From Candidatus Berkelbacteria bacterium CG10_big_fil_rev_8_21_14_0_10_43_13 (GTDB taxonomy: Bacteria > Patescibacteriota > UBA1384 > XYA2-FULL-43-10 > 1-14-0-10-43-13): a DNA stretch of 34,568 nt. Below the pieces are notes generated by a model that worked only from the letters and a program-made list of their open reading frames with translations, did no database searches and had not been told where the DNA came from. The first letter of the stretch is position 1; each line of letters begins with the position of its first letter. Where the stretch lies: the NCBI GenBank assembly GCA_002773985.1, contig PEZW01000021.1, positions 2,952 through 37,519 of the forward strand, given 5' to 3'. A program made the position numbers and the translations under genes. Of this stretch, positions 3,626 to 32,292 are shown piece by piece.

Positions 3626-3701
3626 TGGTACCCGCGGAAGGAATCGAACCTTCGGCCAATAGCTTAGAAGGCTACTGCTCTATCCACTGAGCTACGCGGG
3701 C
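3626..3701 (-). tRNA. tRNA-Arg(TCT)
   Basis: Cloverleaf GCCCGCG-TA-GCTC...GTAGCC TTCTAAG...GAAGG TTCGATT CCTTC CGCGGGT A CCA; anticodon TCT; encoded CCA. Confidence 0.93.
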
Positions 3702-3704
3702 TCT

Positions 3705-3972
3705 TCGCTCACTCTGTTCGCTCGGAGTAAACATCATCGTTAATTGATTTATCTTTCTTCTCTCTGCGCCATCCCTTAATTTCTTTTTCTCTGAGCGCAG
3801 CTTCGTGTCTATTTTCAAACTCTTCGTAATAAACCAATTTAATTGTACCCCTGTTTTTTGTATTCCGGCACAGACCGTGTTGATGTTCCGCAATTCTCTT
3901 CTTGACAGAAAAAGTAAGTCCTACGTAAAGATAGTTATCACATCAACGTAAAATATAGACAAAACTTTTCAT
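3705..3972 (-). pseudogene. GIY-YIG nuclease-domain gene interrupted by an in-frame TGA
   Basis: Minus-strand reading from ATG at 3972: MKSFVYILR*CDNYLYVGLTFSVKKRIAEHQHGLCRNTKNRGTIKLVYYEEFENRHEAALREKEIKGW...; VYI...YVG motif and R..EH typical of GIY-YIG; one TGA at codon 10. Confidence 0.75.
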
Positions 3973-4007
3973 GTTAGTTTTTTACGTTTACACCGAACAA
4001 AGTGAGG

Positions 4008-4083
4008 TGGTACCCCGGATAGGAGTCGAACCTATAACCTCTTGTTCCGAAGACAAGCGCTCTATCCATTGAGCTACCGGGGC
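4008..4083 (-). tRNA. tRNA-Arg(TCG)
   Basis: GCCCCGG-TA-GCTC AATGGATA GAGC G CTTGT CTTCGGA ACAAG ... CCGGGGT A CCA; anticodon TCG; encoded CCA. Confidence 0.93.
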
Positions 4084-5023: not shown

Positions 5024-5074
5024 TGAAAAATAAAATAGTGAGGTTGGACGAGAAGTTTATCCGCCTTTGGCGGA

Positions 5075-5093
5075 AGTCCGACCACCCCGACCA
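5075..5093 (+). repeat. Duplicated 3' end of tRNA-Pro (19 nt)
   Basis: AGTCCGACCACCCCGACCA occurs at 5005-5023 (inside the tRNA) and again at 5075-5093. Confidence 0.9.
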
Positions 5094-6112: not shown

Positions 6113-9100
6113 ATGTTCAACTGGAGGAAGAAAACAAATGAAAAAATTCAAGAAGCTTCCAGCAAATCAGCTGAGGCTGATTTTGTGACACCAGAAGACA
6201 AGAAAAAGGTTTTAGAGTTGGCGCGAGAAAAAGAGGCCGAGCTCGAAAAACTGGCCAAGATTGATGATGAGATCTATATGGTTCAGCGCTCAACCAAGAC
6301 ACTCGTCCCATTTATGGCGCCCTTACACAATAAATTGCGAATGAAATACAAGTGGTATTATGGGTGGCACTTGAAGCGCTACTCCGACCTGGTCCACTGG
6401 CTAACTCTCATCGCGATGGTGCCACTGTTGACGTTGAGCATATTTGCATCTCTTTACAGCCAAAATGTCCCGATGACAAAGGCGACTGCTGCTTGGTATG
6501 ATGCCTCTTGGTCATACCGTCGCGCTCTAACAATTGATTACACCAAGGTCGACGCAGATCTGACCGGCTTTCCGGTGGAGGTTTCCTTGAGCGGTTTGTC
6601 CAATATCAATGCCGATGGGTCTGACATTCGCTTTACCTCCTCCGACGGCACGACGGAGTTGCCACGACAGATTGAATCATACTCAGCCGGAACTTTAGTC
6701 GCCTGGGTTAAGACCAATCTCTCATCATCTGTGGATACTACTCTATATATGTATTATGGTAACGCGGCTGCGACTGAGCCGGCGGCTGATTCTACTTATG
6801 GTAGTCAAAATGTTTGGGACAGCAACTACGCTGCTGTCTGGCATATGAACGCCGACGCCAACGATTCAACAGTCAATGCCAAAAATGGTACTGACCACGC
6901 CATTACTCATGGCACAAGCTACGGAGTCGCCGGCGGCGGTCTCAACACCTCTAACTCATCATCTGGTATTACAATCCCCACCGACACCATCGGAGCGATA
7001 GGTACAGGCGATTTTACAATTGAATTTTGGATGAATCCAGTCGCACCACCCGCCAGTAGATATGTTTATATGGCTGCTTTATTTAACAGTGGAGCATCCT
7101 ATACCGGACCATTTATGTTTTATGATCCCCTTGGTTATACTGGTCACGGTGATGGACTATGTGTACGTCTCCAAACAACAAGTGTGCAGTGCATTACCAG
7201 TCCTTCAGCATCTTCTCTTTATGGCACATGGGTAAATGTTGTCTGGAACCGCATAAGTGGAGTCAATACAGTTTATTATGATGGTGTTCAAAAACTACAA
7301 TTCACTAATAATACCAGTATTACAGCTCCAAGCCTTGGACATATTTTCGGTAATTATACCGGCCCCCCGCAGCCATGGGCATTCAACGCCGGCGCAAACG
7401 GTGACGAATACCGTATTTCGACAACAGGACGCTCTGTCGAATGGGTCACAACACAATACAACAATCAAAGTTCTCCTAGCACCTTCCTCACTGCAGGTGC
7501 CGAAGAAGTTCCTTTGTTTGTTCCCGATGCCCCGACACTTGATTCTGTAACTTCCGGAGATTCACAGGCTGTTGTCTACTTTAGTGCTCCAGCAAGCGAC
7601 GGTGGTGACGCAATTACCGGATACACCGTTACCGCTTCTCCCGGCGGTGCTACTGGTACTGGCACATCATCTCCGATCATTGTCGCCGGCTTGACGAATG
7701 GCACCGAATACACTTTTACTGTTTATGCCACAAACGGTGTCGGTAATTCATCGGAGTCGAGCGCCTCTAGCGCCATCACTCCGACATCTGCCTCTTGGTA
7801 CAATGCTTCCTGGAGCAATCGCCGTGCTGTCATTATCGACCACACCAAAGTACCGTCTGATCAGACAGGCTTTCCGTTAGAAATTTCCATGACCGGTCTT
7901 TCCGGTATTAACGCCAACGGAACTGACATCAGATTTACATCTTCTGATGGCACTACGGAGCTACCGAGAGAAATTGAAAAATACGATTCGGGAAATCTGA
8001 TTGCTTGGGTCAAAACCGACCTATCATCTTCTGTCGATACCACTCTATATATGTACTATGGTAATGCGGCTGCCACTGAGCCGGCGGCTGATTCTACATA
8101 TGGAAAAAATAATGTTTGGGATAGTAATTACAAAGGTGTCTGGCATCTTGCCGATCCTACAAACCCAACTGATTCCACTAGCAATGGACATAGTGGCACA
8201 AACAACGGTACATCTGCAACAACTGGAAAAATAGGTGGCGGCGGAAGTTTTGACGGTTCATCTTTTATAAACGCAGGCACCATCAATTTATCAGGTAGCT
8301 CAATAACAATGCAGGCGTGGGTCAACGCAAGTAGCTTCCAGTCTTCTTGGCCTTATATCTCCTCTATAATGGGGGCTGAGTCGGGTTCCGATATTGCACT
8401 ACTACGTCTCGGTGATACTGGATTGAGCAACAACCTTGCACAGATCAGTCTTCATCTAGCTGGTAACACAAATGCTATCAATGGTATGGATACGAGTACT
8501 TGGTATTTGGTAACAGCAACAGCAGACGGAACAAATATTAAAATTTATTTAAACTCCAACCAAGAAAACTCTAGCGGCCAAAGTAGCTCTGTTGTTTCCA
8601 ATGCAAGTTTTAATATTGGAAGTAATAGTGATTCCGGTGATCGTTATTTTTCAGGAATAATGGACGAGCTCACTGTCGCGACAACAGCCCGTTCAGCCGA
8701 TTGGATCACGACTCAGTACAATAACCAGAGCAGTCCGTCAACATTTTTCATCGCCGGTGGTGAACAGGTTGCATCTAATACAACCATTTCAGGCACAATC
8801 TATACAGCCCTTGATCAATCGACAAATATCGGTGCTGACAAGACAGTCAATCTCTCAATCAATGGCGGAGCGGCCGAATCAACGACGACTGATGCCAATG
8901 GGGCATTTAGCTTTTCCACCAGCACCGCCCTAGACACTGACTACCCTGTCGCTGTTTATTTATCTGGCGACACGAATAAAGCCAGCTACATCACGGTTGC
9001 CACTGACGGCTCGACTGACATTACCGACTTGGCATTGTACACTGGTCATGTCTCACTTTCTCAGGAAAATTCGACCGCAATGACAAATACACTTTTGGCA

Positions 9101-12100
9101 ACAGCCAATACGATTGCCGACTCCGATATGCTGATTTTGACTTCTGCCGGTACGACGACATTTACAACCGGAATGACCACCAGAATCGTCACGGGAAAAA
9201 CCTACACACCCGGAGGCAATGTTGCGTCAGATAATTTTCAACTCTACGGGACATTTATACCGGAATCTAATAATGTTAATATTTCCGGCAGTTGGGACGC
9301 AACCGGTGGAACACTGACTAGTGCGTCTTCAACTTTTGTTTTTAACAGCACTGCAACCGGCAAGACTGTCACATCTAATAGTCAATCATTTAACAATCTG
9401 ACATTTAATGGTAGTGGTGGTGGCTGGACACTATCTGATGATCTGACGGTGGCAGGAGCTTTGAATGTGACTACCGGAACTCTCGATGCTTCAAGCCATA
9501 CAATCAATTTGAGTGGCTCGGGAACACCTTTTACAATCGCCGGGACATTTACACCAAGTACTGGAACGGTTAACTACACCGGGAGTAGTGCGACCAATGT
9601 TACTGGTATCACTTACTACAACTTGACACTCAATCATACTGATACCACCTTTACCGCCGCTGGCGACATAACAGTTAGCAATGTCTTGACGGTGACTGCC
9701 GGAACCTTTGATGCTTCGAGTAGGACTATTACACTGACAGGAGCAAGCGGTACACCGTTTGTTAACTCTGGAACGTTTACACCGTCGACGTCAACAGTTG
9801 TCTTTAATACAGATACCGCAAATGTCCCGTTTTCGGGTATCTCGACTTTTAATAATTTAACACTTAGCCCGACATTGACGGCCAGCCGCAATTGGACTCT
9901 TCCGGCAGTCACAGTCAACGGCACAAGCGCGACAAGTTTTGATATAAATCCGACAGCCGGTTCGGCATACGCCCTGACTGTTACTCTAGGTGGAAATCTG
10001 GCTTTGTCAAATGCCAGTACTCTCCTGATAAGAGGTACAAGCAGTGCAACCTCAGTTCTCGATACTTCGATTACTAATTACAGTATTAGTACCGGCAAAC
10101 TGCAAATAAATCCGGGGGGATCCGTTACTGCCAACGGTTCGACAATCACACTTACGGGTAGTTCAACACCCTTTTCTTACTGGACCTCAAATGCTTTCTC
10201 GGCCGGCACATCGACAATCGTCTTTTCCGGAGATGCTGACATATCATACCTCTTTTATCTCCACAACGGAGATTTGTCCGTTAATAATGTTCAAATTTCA
10301 CCTACTCTGACTGCCCCACATACCCAGGCTCTCAATAGTTATAATTATACTCTGACTATTGGCGGAACATTGGTGATCAATCCATCATCTGATTCAGCCA
10401 ATCTCTTGACAATCACCAATAGCAAATCAATTGCTGTCACCGGCTCCACGACGGTTGGCGGTAGTGGTAGCGCAACCTCAACTTTTGTCTCGTCGGCATC
10501 ATCGACATTTGGCGCAGTTACAATCAATTCCGGCGATACAATGGCCCCGACTGCATCAATAACTGTTTCGTCGATGACAATTGACAGTGGTGGTACTCTT
10601 ACCCTTGCCACCAATACAGTCACGATCAGCGGTTCCGGTACTCCGTTTGTCAACAACGGTACATTTACACCATCGACTGGCTCTACGATTATTTACACCG
10701 GCAGTTCAGACACCACTGTTGCGGGGACTGATTATTATAATTTGAATCTAAATCACGCTGATACCACCTTTACTGCCGGCGGCAATATCTCGATTGCCGG
10801 CGTGTTGACGATCAATGCTGGAACCTTTGATGCTTCGATTAGGACGATTACGCTCTCCGGTACGTCAGGCACACCGTTTATTAAAACTGGAACGTTTACC
10901 CCGTCAACTTCAACCATTGCAGTAACCGGAAACTATTCTAGTGGAAACACTGGTCTGCCCGGTGGTACTTACTACAATTTAATTTTAAATAATGCCTCGG
11001 AGACCTTCTCTGTCGATAGTTCATTAACGATTAACAACGACTTAAATATCACTGCTGGCACCTTTGCTCCGGGTCAAAATATCAGCATCTATGGTAGCTG
11101 GACTAATGCCGGATCATTTACTCCAAGCACAAATACTGTCAACTTTGTTGCTACTGCGACAGGCAAAACGATCACTTCAAACGGTCAGTCGTTCTACAAT
11201 CTGGTCTTCAATGGCTCTGGTGGTGGTTGGACGTTACAGGACAACAGCACAATTGAAAATGACATTACTTTAACTGCCGGCACGGTCACTGCTGGGGCAA
11301 CAACGATAACGGTTGGGGGTAACTGGACAAATGATGGTGGTACATTTACTTACGGAACCAGTACGGTTGATTTGACAGGGGATGCGACGATAGGCGGGGG
11401 TGGTAACTTCTATAATCTAAGGGCTGGTCATGATGGTACTACTGTCAACTTCGGCTCAGATAACATTTCTATCTACAACATACTTTATGCATATTCTGGT
11501 GGCACACTAACTGGTGATCCCATCAATGTTTATTTGAGAAAAACTGATGGTGATCCGTTTATCGACACTGGAGTCACTATCACCACATTAACTTTCTACT
11601 ACATATCTCCGAACAGTATAAGTGTTAGCGGTCATGATTTTTACGGTGTTGGGTTCCGCGGCTACAACAATGATGTAACTTACACATTGACCTCAGACCT
11701 CAGCTCTGATGCCATTTCTACTTTTTCAGATACCGAAGGAAAAACAACAACATTAGACACAAACTCTCATAATCTAGCAATAACTAATTACATTCGATTG
11801 GGTAATGTATACGCCGGCATAATTAACTTTAGTAGTGGTGTACATTCTACCGGTAGCCTTGGTTGGACAAGTCCAGTCGCCTCGGGCAGTGGTTTTGATC
11901 TGGGATCATCATCAATTTCGGTCAACAATAGTGTTTACTTTACTGATACCTCTGTCACCCCCGGCACCTCAACAGTAACAATGAATGCAACTGCAACTGG
12001 CAAGACTGTCACATCTAATAGTCAATCATTTAACAATCTAACCTTTAATGGTAGTGGTGGTGGTTGGACATTGGCTGATGATCTTACAGTTAATGGGGCA

Positions 12101-15100
12101 TTGAATGTCGCCGTCGGCACTTTAGATGCTTCAAGTTACACAGTTAATTTAGCTGGCTCAGGAACACCACTTACAATCGCCGGCACATTTACACCAGGTA
12201 CAGGAACAGTTAATTATACCGGTAGTAGCACAACGAATGTTGCCGGAACAACTTACTACAATCTAACGATGAATCACTCCGGCGTCACATTTACCGTCGC
12301 GGCTGGTATGACGGTTAACAATGTCTTAACAGTGACAGCCGGAACATTTGATGCTTCGAGTAGAACTATTACGCTGGCCGGTTCCGGTACTCCACTGGTA
12401 GTTAATGGTACATTTTCACCGAGTACATCGACAATTGTTTATGGTGGCAGTGATTCAACGACTCAAACAGTTCCGGGGGGTCTAACCTTTTACAACCTGA
12501 CTGCTTCTACTTCTAGTAATTCCGCGGGGCGAACAATAGAGTTTACTGGTGGGTCTACCACAACAGTCAATAATGCCCTAACTCTTACTGGTGCCAGCGA
12601 TAAAATCCTAACAGTCCAGTCATCAGATTCAAGCGATTACACAATTAATCCCGTTAGTGTCACCGCATCCTATGCTGACATCTCCTACTTTGTTGATTCC
12701 GGCAGTGCTTTCTGTGCCACCAACTCAACCGATTCAGGCAACAACTCCGGCTTTATCTTCAGCACTGGTGATTCCTGCCCGATCCCAACTGCTCCATCCG
12801 GTCTTACCGGAACCGCTGCTTCCACCTCAGAGATTGATTGGACCTGGACTGACAACTCTGACAACGAACTATCATGGCAAGTTCAGGACAGTTCGAGCAA
12901 CGGTGTCTCCAGCTCTCTGACCGTGAACACAACTTCTTGGAACGAAACCAGCCTTTCGGCCAACACCGGCTACACTCGCAAAGTTGTAGCGACCAACACG
13001 AGTGGTAGTTCATCATCAAGCCTAGTAACTGCCTATACATTGGCAAATACTCCAAGTGCCCCTACTCTATCAGCCACCTCTGCCAATGCCATCAATATTG
13101 TGATTAATACAAATAGCAATCCGACCACAACAACTCTCTATGCTATTTATAATGTGACGCTTGGCGCATACGTCAAACATGCCGACGGTAGCACTCAGAC
13201 TGATCCTGATTGGCAGCTCTATGCTGACTGGGGCGGAGCCAGTGGCTTTGACAACACTGGATTAACCGCTGGTACTAATTATGTTTACAAGGTCAAGGCG
13301 AAAAATGGTGACGATATTGCTACTGATTTCTCAGCAACCGCCAATACCAATACCGGCAATCCGACTATTGCTTTCAGCTCAGCAACTGCTTCCGGTTCTA
13401 TTTCGACCGCCACAGTAACCGTCCCCATCTCCATTTCGGGAGTTTCCGGCACCGATGCCACGGTTGATTTTTCAGTGTCCGGCGGTACGGCCACTTCTGG
13501 CGATGACTTTACTTTGGCTGATGGCACTGCCTCAATCTCGAGTGGAGATAGTTCGACCAGCTTTGACATCACTATCACCAACGACCATCTGGTTGGGTCG
13601 GACAAGACAATTATCGTTTCTCTGTCCAATCCGACTGGTTCAAGTCTGGGTGCAAACACCACTTATACTTACACCATTGTTAATGATAATGTCGGCCCAT
13701 CCGGTGGCTTCGTTATTAATTCGACCAACCCGAGCAGAACCAACTCTCGCGATCTGACTCTGACACTCAGTTACTCATTGGCAACGCAATACAAAGCCTC
13801 TCTCGACTCTGGCTTTACCGACGCTAGCTGGACCAGTGTTGCCGCTTCTGTGTCACAAGCTTTGGCCGATACAGACGGAACCCAAACCGTTTATCTCAAA
13901 TACAAAGATGCTTACGGCAATGAATCCGGAACTTACAATCGCTCAGTTGTTCTCGATCGTGTTGCTCCCGCAGTACCGACAACACTGTCTGTCTCAGCCG
14001 GAAACACGGCAATCTCGCTTACCTGGGTCAATCCGACAGATTCTGACTTTGCGGCAATCAATATATATCGCTCGACTGTATCTGATTTCACAGCTGGAAC
14101 CGACAACTTGCTGACAACTACCACAAGCGCTTCGACCGCAACCTACACTGATTCCTCCGTCACAAACAACACTACCTACTATTATAAGATCGCCGGACTT
14201 GATAATGTCAGCAACTTAAGTGCTGCGTCAGCACAGGTAAGCGGTAGACCGGACTCAGACCAGCCGACAACACCAGGGCAACCATCTATCACCGCTAGCG
14301 TCAACACTATTGACTCCGCGCTTGTCGCCAACACTAAGTCAGTCACATTTAATTGGGCCAAGTCAACTGATGAAAACTCCGGTCTCAAAGCATACTACAT
14401 AAATATCGGCACCGCTTCTGGCACCGCCAATATTCTTGATAGCCAGGAGGTTAAAAACGATACGACTTCATACGACTATTCTTTTGCCGTTGACGGAACA
14501 TATTTTGTCAAGGTGTTTGCCCGTGACAACAAAAATAATCTCTCTGCTGCCTCGCCTGAGACAACTTTGATAGTTGACTCGACATCGCCGACTACACCAA
14601 CCGATGCAGTTATGGCTGATGTTTCCAATCGCGCCGATGATTATTACGCCGTCATACTTTCATGGAAACCAGCAACCGACACAGGTAGTGGACTTAAGGG
14701 TTATGTGGTTTCTCGGACCGGCCAGGCGATGAACCTTGATTCGAACAGCGTCACTATGAATATTTCAACTGATGCAAAATCCGGCTTAATTTCCTATCTC
14801 GACATCTTGTCGGCTGACGCAAAGGCTAGCTACACAATCAAGGCTGTTGATCTGGCCAAAAACGAAACAGCCGCAGTGGCCGCCACCCTCTCGGACACCA
14901 ACATGACAAAAACAACCGGTCAAAAGGTTGGCAGCACTGAAATTATCCTACCAAGCTCAATAATTGGTGAAGGAGAATTGGCTGTCTCTGATATTAAAGT
15001 ATCTTCATCTGCCACAACGAATGACAAGACACAAGCGGAGGTCACTTGGTTGACTTCTGTACCGGCAAACTCACAGGTTATGTACGGTGCGTCTGCCAAT

Positions 15101-15997
15101 TACAGCCTGAAAACTGAGATTGATACTGGCTTAAATTCATCACACACCGTCATACTTTCCGATCTCAAGCCAGCTACGACTTATCACTACAAGGTTGTCT
15201 CTATCGATCAGCACAGCAACACGGTCTCCTCAGGTGACCAAACATTTACAACCAGTGGCCAGATCAAGCAAAAAACGGTCCTGGATATAATTGCTGATTA
15301 TGTTTCAAACTTCTTCAACAGCGTCTACAATGCGGTTAAAAAAGTATTTTCAGTCAATCCTGATACCGCTTTGGCTGCTGCTAGTACTGGACCAAAATCA
15401 ATTTATGTCACCAATATCTCCTCACCTTCTCAGCCTGGCTACGCTATCTACTGGCCAGATAATCTCGGCAAGGTAAATCTTGAACGCTCAGAAAACGGCG
15501 GCGCTTTCAGCAGTGTAGTACAGACAGAAAGAAACTTTTATTCCGACATAGATGTCAAGGCTGACTCTACTTATACTTATCGAGTCGGCAGTCTGACAGC
15601 CTCAGTTTCCGACGCTATGTCTGGTAAAAGTATTATTTCCGATATAAAGATAAAGTCTGGCGTCGTCGACAAGAACAGTGCTAGTGTCATTGTCACCTTC
15701 AAGACGGACAAGTTGGCACAGTCTCAGATCCTCTACGGAGAAAACGGAGTGATGGACAGTAAAACTACACTGGATGAATCTCTAAATCAGTCTCATACTG
15801 TTTTGATCAAGAAGCTAAAAGTTAATACCCCTTACAGTTTTACCCTGAAGGCAATCGATAGCTCTGGACAAAACACTACGGATTCAGCGATTCAAAAATA
15901 TGTCACCCCGAAAGCACCTGTCGATATGTCCCTCTTTGAAATAATTATTAATGCTCTTGAATCGGCCTTCGCCGGACTTAGCAAGATAGGCAAATAA
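6113..15997 (+). CDS. Giant (3294 aa) repeat-rich surface protein with DUF2341/LamG-like, FN3 and Calx-beta-like domains
   Basis: N-terminal charged region, one TM (LVHWLTLIAMVPLLTLSIFASL), two DUF2341-like modules (ASWSYRRALTIDYTKVD..., ASWSNRRAVIIDHTKVP...), LamG-like segments, FN3-like segments, Calx-beta-like ISISGVSGTDATVDFSVSGGTATSGDDF, many SGTFTPSTxTVxYTG repeats. Confidence 0.92.
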   Translation: MFNWRKKTNEKIQEASSKSAEADFVTPEDKKKVLELAREKEAELEKLAKIDDEIYMVQRSTKTLVPFMAPLHNKLRMKYKWYYGWHLKRYSDLVHWLTLIAMVPLLTLSIFASLYSQNVPMTKATAAWYDASWSYRRALTIDYTKVDADLTGFPVEVSLSGLSNINADGSDIRFTSSDGTTELPRQIESYSAGTLVAWVKTNLSSSVDTTLYMYYGNAAATEPAADSTYGSQNVWDSNYAAVWHMNADANDSTVNAKNGTDHAITHGTSYGVAGGGLNTSNSSSGITIPTDTIGAIGTGDFTIEFWMNPVAPPASRYVYMAALFNSGASYTGPFMFYDPLGYTGHGDGLCVRLQTTSVQCITSPSASSLYGTWVNVVWNRISGVNTVYYDGVQKLQFTNNTSITAPSLGHIFGNYTGPPQPWAFNAGANGDEYRISTTGRSVEWVTTQYNNQSSPSTFLTAGAEEVPLFVPDAPTLDSVTSGDSQAVVYFSAPASDGGDAITGYTVTASPGGATGTGTSSPIIVAGLTNGTEYTFTVYATNGVGNSSESSASSAITPTSASWYNASWSNRRAVIIDHTKVPSDQTGFPLEISMTGLSGINANGTDIRFTSSDGTTELPREIEKYDSGNLIAWVKTDLSSSVDTTLYMYYGNAAATEPAADSTYGKNNVWDSNYKGVWHLADPTNPTDSTSNGHSGTNNGTSATTGKIGGGGSFDGSSFINAGTINLSGSSITMQAWVNASSFQSSWPYISSIMGAESGSDIALLRLGDTGLSNNLAQISLHLAGNTNAINGMDTSTWYLVTATADGTNIKIYLNSNQENSSGQSSSVVSNASFNIGSNSDSGDRYFSGIMDELTVATTARSADWITTQYNNQSSPSTFFIAGGEQVASNTTISGTIYTALDQSTNIGADKTVNLSINGGAAESTTTDANGAFSFSTSTALDTDYPVAVYLSGDTNKASYITVATDGSTDITDLALYTGHVSLSQENSTAMTNTLLATANTIADSDMLILTSAGTTTFTTGMTTRIVTGKTYTPGGNVASDNFQLYGTFIPESNNVNISGSWDATGGTLTSASSTFVFNSTATGKTVTSNSQSFNNLTFNGSGGGWTLSDDLTVAGALNVTTGTLDASSHTINLSGSGTPFTIAGTFTPSTGTVNYTGSSATNVTGITYYNLTLNHTDTTFTAAGDITVSNVLTVTAGTFDASSRTITLTGASGTPFVNSGTFTPSTSTVVFNTDTANVPFSGISTFNNLTLSPTLTASRNWTLPAVTVNGTSATSFDINPTAGSAYALTVTLGGNLALSNASTLLIRGTSSATSVLDTSITNYSISTGKLQINPGGSVTANGSTITLTGSSTPFSYWTSNAFSAGTSTIVFSGDADISYLFYLHNGDLSVNNVQISPTLTAPHTQALNSYNYTLTIGGTLVINPSSDSANLLTITNSKSIAVTGSTTVGGSGSATSTFVSSASSTFGAVTINSGDTMAPTASITVSSMTIDSGGTLTLATNTVTISGSGTPFVNNGTFTPSTGSTIIYTGSSDTTVAGTDYYNLNLNHADTTFTAGGNISIAGVLTINAGTFDASIRTITLSGTSGTPFIKTGTFTPSTSTIAVTGNYSSGNTGLPGGTYYNLILNNASETFSVDSSLTINNDLNITAGTFAPGQNISIYGSWTNAGSFTPSTNTVNFVATATGKTITSNGQSFYNLVFNGSGGGWTLQDNSTIENDITLTAGTVTAGATTITVGGNWTNDGGTFTYGTSTVDLTGDATIGGGGNFYNLRAGHDGTTVNFGSDNISIYNILYAYSGGTLTGDPINVYLRKTDGDPFIDTGVTITTLTFYYISPNSISVSGHDFYGVGFRGYNNDVTYTLTSDLSSDAISTFSDTEGKTTTLDTNSHNLAITNYIRLGNVYAGIINFSSGVHSTGSLGWTSPVASGSGFDLGSSSISVNNSVYFTDTSVTPGTSTVTMNATATGKTVTSNSQSFNNLTFNGSGGGWTLADDLTVNGALNVAVGTLDASSYTVNLAGSGTPLTIAGTFTPGTGTVNYTGSSTTNVAGTTYYNLTMNHSGVTFTVAAGMTVNNVLTVTAGTFDASSRTITLAGSGTPLVVNGTFSPSTSTIVYGGSDSTTQTVPGGLTFYNLTASTSSNSAGRTIEFTGGSTTTVNNALTLTGASDKILTVQSSDSSDYTINPVSVTASYADISYFVDSGSAFCATNSTDSGNNSGFIFSTGDSCPIPTAPSGLTGTAASTSEIDWTWTDNSDNELSWQVQDSSSNGVSSSLTVNTTSWNETSLSANTGYTRKVVATNTSGSSSSSLVTAYTLANTPSAPTLSATSANAINIVINTNSNPTTTTLYAIYNVTLGAYVKHADGSTQTDPDWQLYADWGGASGFDNTGLTAGTNYVYKVKAKNGDDIATDFSATANTNTGNPTIAFSSATASGSISTATVTVPISISGVSGTDATVDFSVSGGTATSGDDFTLADGTASISSGDSSTSFDITITNDHLVGSDKTIIVSLSNPTGSSLGANTTYTYTIVNDNVGPSGGFVINSTNPSRTNSRDLTLTLSYSLATQYKASLDSGFTDASWTSVAASVSQALADTDGTQTVYLKYKDAYGNESGTYNRSVVLDRVAPAVPTTLSVSAGNTAISLTWVNPTDSDFAAINIYRSTVSDFTAGTDNLLTTTTSASTATYTDSSVTNNTTYYYKIAGLDNVSNLSAASAQVSGRPDSDQPTTPGQPSITASVNTIDSALVANTKSVTFNWAKSTDENSGLKAYYINIGTASGTANILDSQEVKNDTTSYDYSFAVDGTYFVKVFARDNKNNLSAASPETTLIVDSTSPTTPTDAVMADVSNRADDYYAVILSWKPATDTGSGLKGYVVSRTGQAMNLDSNSVTMNISTDAKSGLISYLDILSADAKASYTIKAVDLAKNETAAVAATLSDTNMTKTTGQKVGSTEIILPSSIIGEGELAVSDIKVSSSATTNDKTQAEVTWLTSVPANSQVMYGASANYSLKTEIDTGLNSSHTVILSDLKPATTYHYKVVSIDQHSNTVSSGDQTFTTSGQIKQKTVLDIIADYVSNFFNSVYNAVKKVFSVNPDTALAAASTGPKSIYVTNISSPSQPGYAIYWPDNLGKVNLERSENGGAFSSVVQTERNFYSDIDVKADSTYTYRVGSLTASVSDAMSGKSIISDIKIKSGVVDKNSASVIVTFKTDKLAQSQILYGENGVMDSKTTLDESLNQSHTVLIKKLKVNTPYSFTLKAIDSSGQNTTDSAIQKYVTPKAPVDMSLFEIIINALESAFAGLSKIGK

Positions 15998-22484: not shown

Positions 22485-22513
22485 AAAGAGTCGGTCGATA
22501 GACTGGCTTTTTC
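22485..22513 (+). terminator. Terminator-like hairpin after tRNA-His
   Basis: AAAGAGTCGGTC-GATA-GACTGGCTTTTT. Confidence 0.6.
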
Positions 22514-22553
22514 AAATGGGGATGAAGGGAATTGAACCTAAAAATCCCGCTTT

Positions 22554-22600
22554 ACCCCGCATATCCAGCTCTTTTCACAAAAGGGCTGGAGAAGTGGGGT
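22554..22600. repeat. Long imperfect palindrome P1 with ACCCCGC/GTGGGGT ends
   Basis: ACCCCGCATATCCAGCTCTTTT-CAC-AAAAGGGCTGGAGAAGTGGGGT. Confidence 0.75.
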
Positions 22601-22650
22601 GGCCGCCCCATTTGAAAAAGTCAATCGTCAAGATTGTCTTTTTTAAATTG
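22601..22650 (+). repeat. Duplicated tRNA-His 3' end plus a second terminator-like hairpin
   Basis: GGCCGCCCCATTT (also 22471-22483) followed by AAAAAGTCAATC-GTCAA-GATTGTCTTTTTT. Confidence 0.7.
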
Positions 22651-27202: not shown

Positions 27203-27550
27203 TCAGGGAGTAAGTTTTTTAGATTTAATTAGCCCGCTTAGCATTTTACAGATTTCTTCAATTTCAACAAACCAGTCATCTTTCTTTAATAATTCAAGCC
27301 CTTCGCAGATCTCTAATATTGCAATTAATTCGTAAGCTGAGGCCTGAGCAATACGGTAAAAATGACATTTTTCTTTTGGCGCAAATCTACCCGATCCTTC
27401 TGCAATGTTTAATGTGATCGAAGTAACCGCGCCAATCAACTGATCTTGCAATCGTTTGAAACGATATGGAAATTTTACTGCAACCCGACATAATTCAATC
27501 GAAAGTTTTAACGACCTATTGTAAACAGTCAGATTTTGAGACTGAAACAT
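27203..27550 (-). CDS. Four-helix-bundle protein (23S rRNA IVP/S23 or Avd-like family)
   Basis: LTVYNRSLKLSIELCRVAVKFPYRFKRLQDQLIGAVTSITLNIAEGSGRFAPKEKCHFYRIAQASAYELIAILEI, a characteristic pattern for this family. Confidence 0.88.
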   Translation of the reverse strand: MFQSQNLTVYNRSLKLSIELCRVAVKFPYRFKRLQDQLIGAVTSITLNIAEGSGRFAPKEKCHFYRIAQASAYELIAILEICEGLELLKKDDWFVEIEEICKMLSGLIKSKKLTP

Positions 27551-27560
27551 ATACGCCCCC

Positions 27561-27602
27561 CCTATCCACTATAATCTATCCCCTATCCACTATAATCTAT
27601 CC
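27561..27602 (+). repeat. 21-bp exact tandem repeat (CTATCCA type, opposite orientation to 27108-27168)
   Basis: CCTATCCACTATAATCTATCC x2. Confidence 0.9.
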
Positions 27603-27649
27603 ACTCTTAACTAACTATGGAGCCGATGAGAGGAGTTGAACCTCCGACC

Positions 27650-27681
27650 TTACCCCGCCCAAGCAGCGAGGGCGGGGCGAG
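27650..27681. repeat. Palindromic element P2 (variable-loop position)
   Basis: TTACCCCGCCC-AAGCAGCGA-GGGCGGGGCGAG. Confidence 0.85.
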
Positions 27682-27704
27682 CTTTACGAAAGTGCTGCTC
27701 TACT

Positions 27705-27968
27705 TCACCCCGCCTTGGGCTCAGGCGGGGCAAGCTGAGCTAAGAATTCCTTGTATTTTCTATTCTTCTTTTTCAACCAAATTTCGTGTTTTCTGGCTTC
27801 TAAGTAATTAGTGTGTTCTTTAAAGTAAACTAATTTCCATGGTCTTTTTTGAGAAGTTGTCTTTAATTTTCCGCAATTATGTTCGTGCAAGCGCTTCTCT
27901 GGGTCTTCAGTAATCCCAGTGTAGAAGTTGTTGTCCTTTTCACTTTTAATAAGATAAGTGTAAATCAT
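27705..27968 (-). CDS. GIY-YIG nuclease domain protein
   Basis: From ATG at 27968: MIYTYLIKSEKDNNFYTGITEDPEKRLHEHNCGKLKTTSQKRPWKLVYFKEHTNYLEARKHEIWLKKK...; the longer ORF to 28007 reads through tRNA-Thr. Confidence 0.9.
   Translation of the reverse strand: MIYTYLIKSEKDNNFYTGITEDPEKRLHEHNCGKLKTTSQKRPWKLVYFKEHTNYLEARKHEIWLKKKNRKYKEFLAQLAPPEPKAG
27706..27734. repeat. Palindromic element P3 (D-loop position)
   Basis: CACCCCGCCT-TGGGCTC-AGGCGGGGCAAG, 8-bp perfect arms. Confidence 0.85.
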
Positions 27969-27970
27969 TT

Positions 27971-28046
27971 TGGAGCCGAAGGCGAGATTCGAACTCGCGA
28001 CCTCCACTTTACGAAAGTGTTGCTCTACCAGCTGAGCTACATCGGC
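27971..28046 (-). tRNA. tRNA-Thr(CGT)
   Basis: GCCGATG-TA-GCTCAGCTGGTAGAGCA ACACT TTCGTAA AGTGG AGGTC GCGAG TTCGAAT CTCGC CTTCGGC T CCA; one U-U mismatch in the acceptor stem. Confidence 0.92.
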
Positions 28047-28142
28047 AAGATTTCAGCAGATAGCGGGTAAATGATAGTTTACAGGGAAACAAAAAACACT
28101 TCTTCCCTATCTACTAAAAACTACCCTCTTTCAACTAATCTA

Positions 28143-28216
28143 TGGAGCGAGTAGGCGGAATCGGACCGCCGCCTCAACCTTGGGAAGGTCGCATTCTACC
28201 ACTAAACTATACTCGC
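28143..28216 (-). tRNA. tRNA-Gly(CCC)
   Basis: GCGAGTA-TA-GTTTAGTGGTAGAATG CGACC TTCCCAA GGTTG...TACTCGC T CCA; anticodon CCC. Confidence 0.93.
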
Positions 28217-28245
28217 CAACAACTATGAAGGAGGAGGAAGGACGC

Positions 28246-28267
28246 ACCTGCCTGCCGGCAGGCAGGT
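28246..28267. repeat. 22-bp perfect palindrome
   Basis: ACCTGCCTGCCGGCAGGCAGGT. Confidence 0.95.
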
Positions 28268-28272
28268 TTTGC

Positions 28273-28342
28273 CACCCCGCCTGCACCCAAGGCGGGGCAA
28301 GCTAAACTATACTTTACCCCGACCTAAATTTCAGGCGGGGCC
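28273..28342. repeat. Palindromic elements P4 and P5 flanking a tRNA-Gly D-arm fragment
   Basis: P4 ACCCCGCC-TGCACCCAA-GGCGGGGCAAG; P5 TTACCCCGACCTAAATTTCAGGCGGGGCC; between them GCTAAACTATACT, which shares CTAAACTATACT with tRNA-Gly(CCC) at 28202-28213. Confidence 0.8.
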
Positions 28343-28480
28343 GCAGATGGCGTATATTTAACAATCTCTAGCTTAAAATTTACCACTTTCACTCGATAAT
28401 AACAACACTTTTACCGTTGATAATCAGAAAACTGCCTACATTTACAAACAGAGTAAAAAACGGTTTAATTATATTAGTCT

Positions 28481-28617
28481 CTAACGCGTTATATGTAATT
28501 ATTGTTCGAAGCTGAAAACTATCAGCTGAGAACTTAAAAAGTTTATTAAACTTCTCACTTCCGCTCGAAGAATAAAAAAACAGTTAAATGTTAATTTAAT
28601 TGCACATAACGCGTTAG
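28481..28617. repeat. Nested inverted-repeat region (structured element)
   Basis: Outer arms CTAACGCGTTATATGTAATTA / TAATTGCACATAACGCGTTAG (19/21 paired); inner TTCGAAGC/GCTCGAAG arms; hairpins AGCTGA-AAACTA-TCAGCT and AAGTTTA-T-TAAACTT. Confidence 0.85.
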
Positions 28618-31842: not shown

Positions 31843-31894
31843 GGGGTCGTAGTGTAGCGGTTATCACGAGCCGATGGACATCGGCTAGATCGCC
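31843..31894 (+). pseudogene. tRNA-Asp 5' fragment with replaced anticodon arm, truncated in the T-stem
   Basis: GGGGTCGTAGTGTAGCGGTTATCACG identical (26 nt) to the intact tRNA-Asp 5' end; AGATCGCC also shared; anticodon arm replaced by AGCCGAT-GGAC-ATCGGCT. Confidence 0.9.
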
Positions 31895-31902
31895 AACAAA
31901 AT

Positions 31903-32169
31903 ATGAAATCTGCGGTATATATTCTAGAATTGTGCAATGGTCAATACTATATTGGCTCTACCCCCAATTTAGAAAGACGACTAAACGAGCATCGGCTCGG
32001 TAAAGCAATGAGCACAAAGGGGAAATTGCCATTTAAACTTGTCTTCAGCCAGGGTTTTGTACAATTACAAGAAGCCCGAAATATGGAATACAAGCTTAAG
32101 AAATATAAAAACAAGAATATAATTAAACAAATTGTTGCCGACGGTTTTATAAAATCGTCCGGGTGTTAG
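31903..32169 (+). CDS. GIY-YIG nuclease domain protein
   Basis: MKSAVYILELCNGQYYIGSTPNLERRLNEHRLGKAMSTKGKLPFKLVFSQGFVQLQEARNMEYKLKKYKNKN. Confidence 0.93.
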   Translation: MKSAVYILELCNGQYYIGSTPNLERRLNEHRLGKAMSTKGKLPFKLVFSQGFVQLQEARNMEYKLKKYKNKNIIKQIVADGFIKSSGC

Positions 32170-32292
32170 TAAATTTTTTCGATCGGTCCGATTGGGGTCG
32201 TAGTGTAGCGGTTATCACGTCTCCCTGTCACGGAGAAGATCGCCGGTTCGAATCCGGTCGACCCCGCCATTGGATCGATCGAAAAAATTTAC
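32169..32292. repeat. 21-bp inverted repeat enclosing tRNA-Asp
   Basis: Left GTAAATTTTTTCGATCGGTCC (32169-32189), right GGATCGATCGAAAAAATTTAC (32272-32292); 20/21 complementary. Confidence 0.9.
32194..32269 (+). tRNA. tRNA-Asp(GTC)
   Basis: GGGGTCG-TA-GTGTAGCGGTTATCACG TCTCC CTGTCAC GGAGA AGATC GCCGG TTCGAAT CCGGT CGACCCC G CCA. Confidence 0.96.

Follow-up and report, generated by a model that had tools for sequence, protein, structure and literature searches.

The window analyzed here, a 34,568-nt stretch of the Candidatus Berkelbacteria genome (838 kb in 28 contigs; G000 in the comparisons below), encodes on its minus strand an intact tRNA-Gly(CCC) and an intact tRNA-Thr(CGT), each accompanied by the remains of a split tRNA of the same type into which short palindromes are inserted (Table 1). 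An open reading frame (ORF) for a small GIY-YIG nuclease starts 3 nt past the intact tRNA-Thr; its C-terminus is encoded across the D-arm of the Thr remnant, and its stop codon lies within the D-loop palindrome of that remnant. A tRNA-Asp cassette with a GIY-YIG ORF of its own is found on the plus strand. A protein of the 23S rRNA-intervening-sequence family (PF05635) is encoded close to the Thr remnant (27203-27547).

Table 1. Features of the tRNA-Thr/tRNA-Gly locus and of the tRNA-Asp cassette (positions in the window).
Feature	Position	Strand	Evidence or remark
tRNA-Thr remnant, position 8 to CCA, with two palindromes	27618..27743	-	
Anticodon-arm palindrome, Thr remnant	27649..27681	-	Common to G001, where the inner segment is inverted
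D-loop palindrome CTTGCCCCGCCTGAGCCCAAGGCGGGGTGAA, Thr remnant	27704..27734	-	Directly after TTAGCTCAG (27743-27735)
Small GIY-YIG nuclease ORF, between intact tRNA-Thr and Thr remnant	27705..27968	-	PF01541, E=7.6e-16
Intact tRNA-Thr(CGT), sole copy	27971..28046	-	tRNA prediction, anticodon count, Rfam
Intact tRNA-Gly(CCC), sole copy of the anticodon in the genome; presumed replacement copy	28143..28216	-	ARAGORN, Rfam, anticodon count
Spacer TCCTCCTTCATAGTTGTTG, Gly remnant to intact tRNA-Gly	28217..28235	-	Matches 5' inverted-repeat arm flanking a nested tRNA-Gly in G045
Anticodon-arm piece TGCGTCCTTCC, Gly remnant	28236..28246	-	Stops after second anticodon nucleotide
Perfect palindrome ACCTGCCTGCCGGCAGGCAGGT, at about position 25 of Gly remnant	28246..28267		Not in orthologous remnant of same-genus G001
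D-loop palindrome CTTGCCCCGCC...GGCGGGGTG (in full CTTGCCCCGCCTTGGGTGCAGGCGGGGTG), Gly remnant	28273..28301	-	Directly after AAGTATAGTTTAG
D-arm piece AGTATAGTTTAG, Gly remnant	28313-28302	-	Copy of D-arm of neighbouring tRNA-Gly(CCC)
Acceptor/D-arm piece AAGTATAGTTTAG, Gly remnant	28302..28314	-	Sequence reading, repeat comparison
Palindrome GCCCCGCCTGAAATTTAGGTCGGGGTA, near position 3 of Gly remnant	28315..28341	-	Precedes D-arm piece; absent from G001
5' remnant of tRNA-Asp (positions 1-26)	31843..31868	+	
Hairpin AGCCGATGGACATCGGCT in place of anticodon arm, tRNA-Asp remnant	31869-31886	+	
GIY-YIG ORF, tRNA-Asp cassette	31903..32169	+	PF01541, E=9.5e-14
Intact tRNA-Asp(GTC), flanked by 19-bp-scale inverted repeat (AAATTTTTTCGATCGGTCC / GGATCGATCGAAAAAATTT)	32194..32269	+	

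The sequence-only reading of this DNA had described a minus-strand palindrome directly following a copy of the tRNA-Gly D-arm, and this description is borne out: AAGTATAGTTTAG, whose last 12 nt are the 5' part of the intact tRNA-Gly(CCC) (28213-28202; repeat D6), runs into CTTGCCCCGCCTTGGGTGCAGGCGGGGTG. The fragment is longer than first noted, however. An insertion-tolerant alignment of the intact tRNA-Gly with its upstream flank orders it as GCG, a palindrome, AGTATAGTTTAG, the D-loop palindrome, GCAAAA, the palindrome ACCTGCCTGCCGGCAGGCAGGT and TGCGTCCTTCC, so that it extends over about 28344-28236, covers positions 1 to about 35 and contains three palindromes. Given the palindrome ahead of the D-arm piece and the continuation of tRNA sequence past the D-loop palindrome, the fragment is a whole 5' half of a tRNA-Gly. 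The palindrome start CTTGCCCCGCC, with at most one mismatch, occurs five times in the window against 0.37 expected, a count reached in none of the shuffles. Two of the three Gly palindromes are missing from the orthologous remnant in G001, with no target duplication evident, and were therefore gained after the G000 and G001 lineages separated. At this locus the inverted-repeat arm is incomplete and the 3' half is absent; common descent or transfer, instead of repeated insertion, may account for the Gly event.

The parallel drawn earlier between the Gly palindrome and tRNA-Thr also holds, the Thr remnant consisting of TTAGCTCAG followed by CTTGCCCCGCCTGAGCCCAAGGCGGGGTGAA. The Thr locus is orthologous in G001 and G002, and past the D-loop palindrome the G002 remnant is identical to the intact tRNA and has no anticodon palindrome. 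A single junction, with TAGCTCAG before and GTAGAGC after the insert (that is, TAG, the palindrome CTTGCCC...GGTGAA, and GTA), recurs for the CTTGCCCC...GGGGTGAA palindrome family in remnants of tRNA-Gly(CCC) and of three tRNA-Thr isoacceptors, Thr(CGT), Thr(TGT) and Thr(GGT), and it is seen in four families (f1, f22, f14, and f114). The recurrence at the D-arm is therefore real, and further D-arm insertions, for which the sequence-only reading had looked to the genome and its relatives, are present in both. Its proposal that two different tRNAs were hit at one structural position stands as regards the shared D-loop junction but not as regards functional tRNAs being struck, as both struck copies are dead and lie beside an intact replacement; generally, the struck gene is a dead, split tRNA. 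Likewise, target-site specificity survives in that the junction recurs across tRNA types, but a D-arm that serves as the general target is not supported: palindromes of unrelated sequence are located all along tRNA remnants, in acceptor, anticodon, and T regions too.

These observations bear on an explanation in which a REP- or MITE-like palindrome is inserted by a transposition machinery that picks the tRNA D-loop (AG before and GTA after the insert) by sequence or by structure, which we regard as possible but doubtful. The shared junction just described speaks for it, as does a modest excess of loop junctions over all palindrome families, 26 of 42 where 19 would be expected (P about 0.016), in a test that assumes uniform placement along each remnant, allows for shift ambiguity, and includes some Thr rows that are one palindrome split by the aligner. 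Against it, the same palindrome family is not confined to D-loops: it occurs in anticodon arms (27681-27649 and locus L313) as well as in the acceptor region, and it has copies outside tRNAs too. Several of the D-loop cases, moreover, are ascertained, having been found with a D-loop pattern. The impression of a D-arm choice is further inflated because in a short 5' remnant there is little but the D-arm to be hit. With an excess of this size we reject strict D-loop targeting as the main rule; targeting of the D-arm explains the pattern only in part. Matches to the Y1 transposase domain (PF01797) are present in G000, G001, G002, and G045, but at E<=1e-5 none turned up in G020 or G032, both of them palindrome-rich; as candidate mobilizer, the Y1 transposase does not follow the abundance of the palindromes. 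Palindrome copies were counted by pattern searches. One family, that of G020 and G032 (L174-L199), has up to about 42 CTTGCCCCGCC...GGCGGGGT palindromes, many of them situated away from tRNAs and with TCTC next to them.

Most of the insertions of at least 12 nt in the remnants are hairpins (median fold z -3.0, with 34 of 42 below -1.5). In length the insertions mostly measure 20-60 nt, and they belong to several families of unrelated sequence. In G000, the window's palindrome family has copies outside tRNAs on C5, C9, and C13. Palindrome ends in copies outside tRNAs are CTTG and GTGAA, with no GTAG end tag, and the GTAG found beside the Thr palindrome copies is tRNA sequence. At the Val loci of G045 and G009, the arms that bear a tRNA terminate in TTCACCC...GGGCAAG, the reverse complement of CTTGCCC...GGGTGAA of the window's palindrome; on these sequences, hairpins that bear a tRNA and palindromes that do not may be forms of one thing. 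Two more copies of the window's palindrome, at L001 and L005, are found close to the apex of an imperfect hairpin repeat of larger size (ATCCTCGG...CCGGGGATCC). At L092, L125, and L157, and in the window at 31869-31886, the anticodon arm is wholly replaced by a palindrome, not interrupted. Downstream of tRNA-Ser, several genomes have a hairpin ahead of GIY-YIG ORFs (L056, L140, L144, and L096); its outer arms are TGTACC/GGTACA, and its inner hairpins vary.

Several loci have an intact tRNA inside a split copy of the same type, with inverted repeats on both sides: this arrangement is found for Phe and Trp in G000, Thr and Val in G045, and Val in G009, and nested Lys, Val, and Thr tRNAs also occur in more distant families. 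Inverted repeats score at least 10 around 16 of 201 intact tRNAs, against 0.86 expected from mispaired flanks. The split often falls at the anticodon, between positions 35 and 36, or at the loop edge (Thr L173, Val L288 and L249, Ile L240, Trp, and Phe) and, where a GIY-YIG ORF is present, often near positions 25/26. The tRNA-Phe of G000 (L029) begins as GCCGATG...GAGGA and resumes as CTGAAAA...CATCGGCACCA; the break is filled by TCCCGTAGAAAATTTC, a different, foreign tRNA-Phe, and GAAATTTTTACGGGACAGG, with the inverted repeats on either side of the newcomer. The syntenic place in G001 and G002 (L247 and L303) holds one uninterrupted tRNA-Phe, GCCGATG...CATCGGC, followed by tRNA-Cys and tRNA-Gly. 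We take this empty site to be decisive as to which event came first. The tRNA-Trp nest, which like that of Phe has no ORF, also has an empty site in two relatives. Downstream of the G000 tRNA-Trp (L030) are two successive 3' remnants, the second of them older, which suggests two rounds of displacement.

The two nested loci that were folded each place one cloverleaf inside another (z -3.4 and -4.2). This nested structure is the minimum-energy fold in each, the insertions are hairpins with some bias to loops, and stems persist in compact genomes, all of which would fit a split outer tRNA that is kept, with its hairpins, as a structured RNA aiding the folding or processing of the inner tRNA. We consider such a role unlikely, in that related genomes can lack the outer copy wholly, many loci have one half only, and many remnants carry stem-breaking insertions or replaced arms.

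Split copies are widespread and have a consistent polarity. In a sample of 292 tRNAs, drawn mainly from eight genomes, which is enriched for GIY-YIG loci and includes all 43 tRNAs found in G000, a 5' half of the same type (score >=28) lies upstream of 44 tRNAs, as compared with 2 in the opposite-strand control and 10 in the wrong-side control. A 3' half of the same type lies downstream of 44 of the 292 at the same score (controls: 2 on the opposite strand, 6 on the wrong side). The cross-tRNA null for these scores is inflated by the real remnants in the flanks. In G000, 16 of the 43 tRNAs have a remnant beside them (score 26), and the intact tRNA is almost always the sole copy with its anticodon. 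The Phe and Trp remnants are closer to tRNAs of relatives than to the adjacent intact copy, although this comparison is biased because it takes the closest among several relatives. Of 75 remnants, 16 match the neighbouring tRNA exactly, and some cases are thus possibly local duplications and not foreign replacements. Such identity is what ordinary tandem tRNA duplication followed by decay would leave, and if palindromes landed in any non-coding DNA they would be found, as they are, in other intergenic DNA too. As a general account this is nonetheless improbable: tandem copies have no reason to place complementary halves around the intact gene, the 5' one upstream and the 3' one downstream, broken at the same or nearly the same point, and the inverted repeats between the halves and the empty site in relatives would go unexplained. 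Misassembly of metagenome bins at repeated tRNA sequences is highly improbable, for although most of the genomes compared are multi-contig drafts, the consistent polarity recurs in many genomes, the structure is orthologous, with variation, among G000, G001, and G002, and nested loci lie deep inside long contigs (e.g., G111:C1 near 482 kb).

A nuclease gene is often part of these loci. Besides uvrC, G000 encodes 12 small GIY-YIG ORFs (PF01541), 10 of which are within 300 nt of a tRNA, and in a survey of this genome and 30 relatives, 61 of 114 such ORFs are within 300 nt of a tRNA, 60 of the 61 in the orientation of the tRNA. About 4.7% would be expected to be so placed by chance (P about 5e-50, with loci treated as independent). 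The typical order is 5' tRNA half, ORF, intact tRNA, and 3' tRNA half, as for Leu(CAA), the outer halves of which have complementary acceptor strands (GCCGAAG and CTTCGGT). The ORF is absent from many nested loci, including those of Gly, Phe, and Trp. Between tRNA-Arg(TCG) and tRNA-Arg(TCT) in the window (3626-4083) is a GIY-YIG ORF with an in-frame TGA, a decaying cassette ORF.

The anatomy is observed directly; from it we infer how the elements would move. We assign a probability of roughly 0.72 to the reading that hairpin elements, whether bare or carrying a cargo tRNA or nuclease gene, break tRNA genes, that cargo tRNAs replace the broken ones, and that the Gly fragment is, by this route, the leftover 5' half of a displaced older tRNA-Gly(CCC) beside its replacement tRNA-Gly. 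The units entering tRNA genes would be short hairpins, some of them bearing a tRNA in the loop and many a GIY-YIG nuclease ORF. Where the broken tRNA is essential and single-copy, the insertion would survive only by bringing the same tRNA, so that the match of cargo to target would result from selection for a living tRNA, and the dead copy would afterwards tolerate more empty hairpins. By analogy with homing endonucleases, the GIY-YIG protein probably cleaves the resident tRNA gene and causes the cassette to be copied into that gene. The Gly case in the window would be a member with no ORF, its 3' half probably removed when it recombined with the cargo. The tRNA-Gly of G001 (L102) has an unmatched acceptor stem (GCGAGTG with TACCCGC) and, judged by these ends, looks hybrid, with a newcomer's 5' end joined to the resident's 3' end as if by recombination, which suggests that 3' halves are lost in this way. 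A more specific version is tentative, and we would put it at somewhat under even odds: tiny mobile elements, each a DNA hairpin body with a complete tRNA gene and with or without a GIY-YIG gene, would insert site-specifically in the anticodon or D loop of the cognate tRNA and replace the resident, with repeated rounds building tRNA-within-tRNA nests and with bare palindromes as the empty forms.

Our literature search, from the scope of which subscription papers and preprints were excluded, gave no description of nested tRNAs or of tRNA-linked GIY-YIG ORFs, and none of the known systems with which we compared these loci has a whole replacement tRNA in a hairpin inside the tRNA replaced. SegB of phage T4, a member of the GIY-YIG family, is reportedly a free-standing homing endonuclease linked to the inheritance of a tRNA gene region. 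The loci described here likewise link a small endonuclease to a tRNA gene region, with cleavage a presumed step; we know of no replacement tRNA nested in the target and of no palindromes in the SegB system. Mobile ORFs of fungal mitochondria form gene hybrids (Allomyces atp6; Glomus atp6, atp9, cox2, and nad3) in which an endonuclease ORF, of the GIY-YIG type in atp9, enters with a foreign replacement of the interrupted part while the native gene end stays downstream as a remnant (PMC3630166). The combination of endonuclease ORF, replacement sequence, and leftover native remnant is shared, and homing-nuclease domains (the PF01541 ORFs) adjoin the interrupted genes. Fungal mobile ORFs, however, replace part of a protein gene and the hybrid is transcribed, whereas here a complete tRNA is supplied, a remnant lies on both sides, many copies have no ORF, and inverted repeats surround the cargo. 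Targets uninterrupted in relatives, a property that for mobile ORFs concerns ORF-bearing loci, are seen here at the ORF-less Phe and Trp nests. Group I introns, which occur with homing endonucleases in the anticodons of bacterial tRNAs (PMC3984707), resemble our insertions in lying at or near the anticodon, but at about 10-40 nt the spacers here could not accommodate such an intron, and positions 27500-28500 gave no Rfam intron match. Splicing would be unneeded because the insert carries a whole tRNA.

Among palindromic repeats, REPs, or GTAG-tagged palindromes associated with RAYT transposases, are 20-40 bp long and dispersed in the genome (PMC3733652). The window's family is similarly short and dispersed, but it lacks the GTAG end tag and has no consistent link to Y1 transposase genes. 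The palindromic elements of Rickettsia measure 105-146 bp, lie within genes thought to stay functional, including RNA genes (tmRNA and M1 RNA), and can supply coding sequence to ORFs (PMC2229807). Those of the present loci also lie in genes, RNA genes among them, and contribute coding sequence to an ORF, but they are about 20-60 nt long and occupy dead, split tRNA copies beside an intact sole copy. The target-site duplication of a classical MITE or insertion sequence is absent, by inspection, from the junctions of the Gly remnant (G000 compared with G001) and of Phe (G000 compared with G001 and G002).

Genes for tRNAs are usually regarded as conserved and vertically inherited. For a large part of the single-copy tRNAs of a minimal genome, about 16 of 43 by the remnant test, there are traces of a displaced predecessor, which, if confirmed, would constitute a route for the horizontal replacement of essential RNA genes, give a role to the many small GIY-YIG ORFs of these bacteria, and provide a setting for studying the origin of bacterial palindromic repeats. 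The annotation of tRNAs in such genomes can be misled by split halves. Elsewhere in the window, tRNA-Pro(TGG) is followed (5055-5092) by the palindrome TCCGCCTTTGGCGGA and then by AGTCCGACCACCCCGACCA, a remnant of the tRNA-Pro 3' end. Downstream of tRNA-His, a tRNA-like piece split by a 49-nt hairpin lies within an inverted repeat (TTTTTCAAATGGGG / CCCCATTTGAAAAA; 22510-22615); we dropped this neighbourhood as a candidate 3' remnant and excluded it from the evidence, as the piece may be antisense. The window also contains an open reading frame of 3294 codons (6113-15997), an unusual length for a genome of 0.84 Mb.
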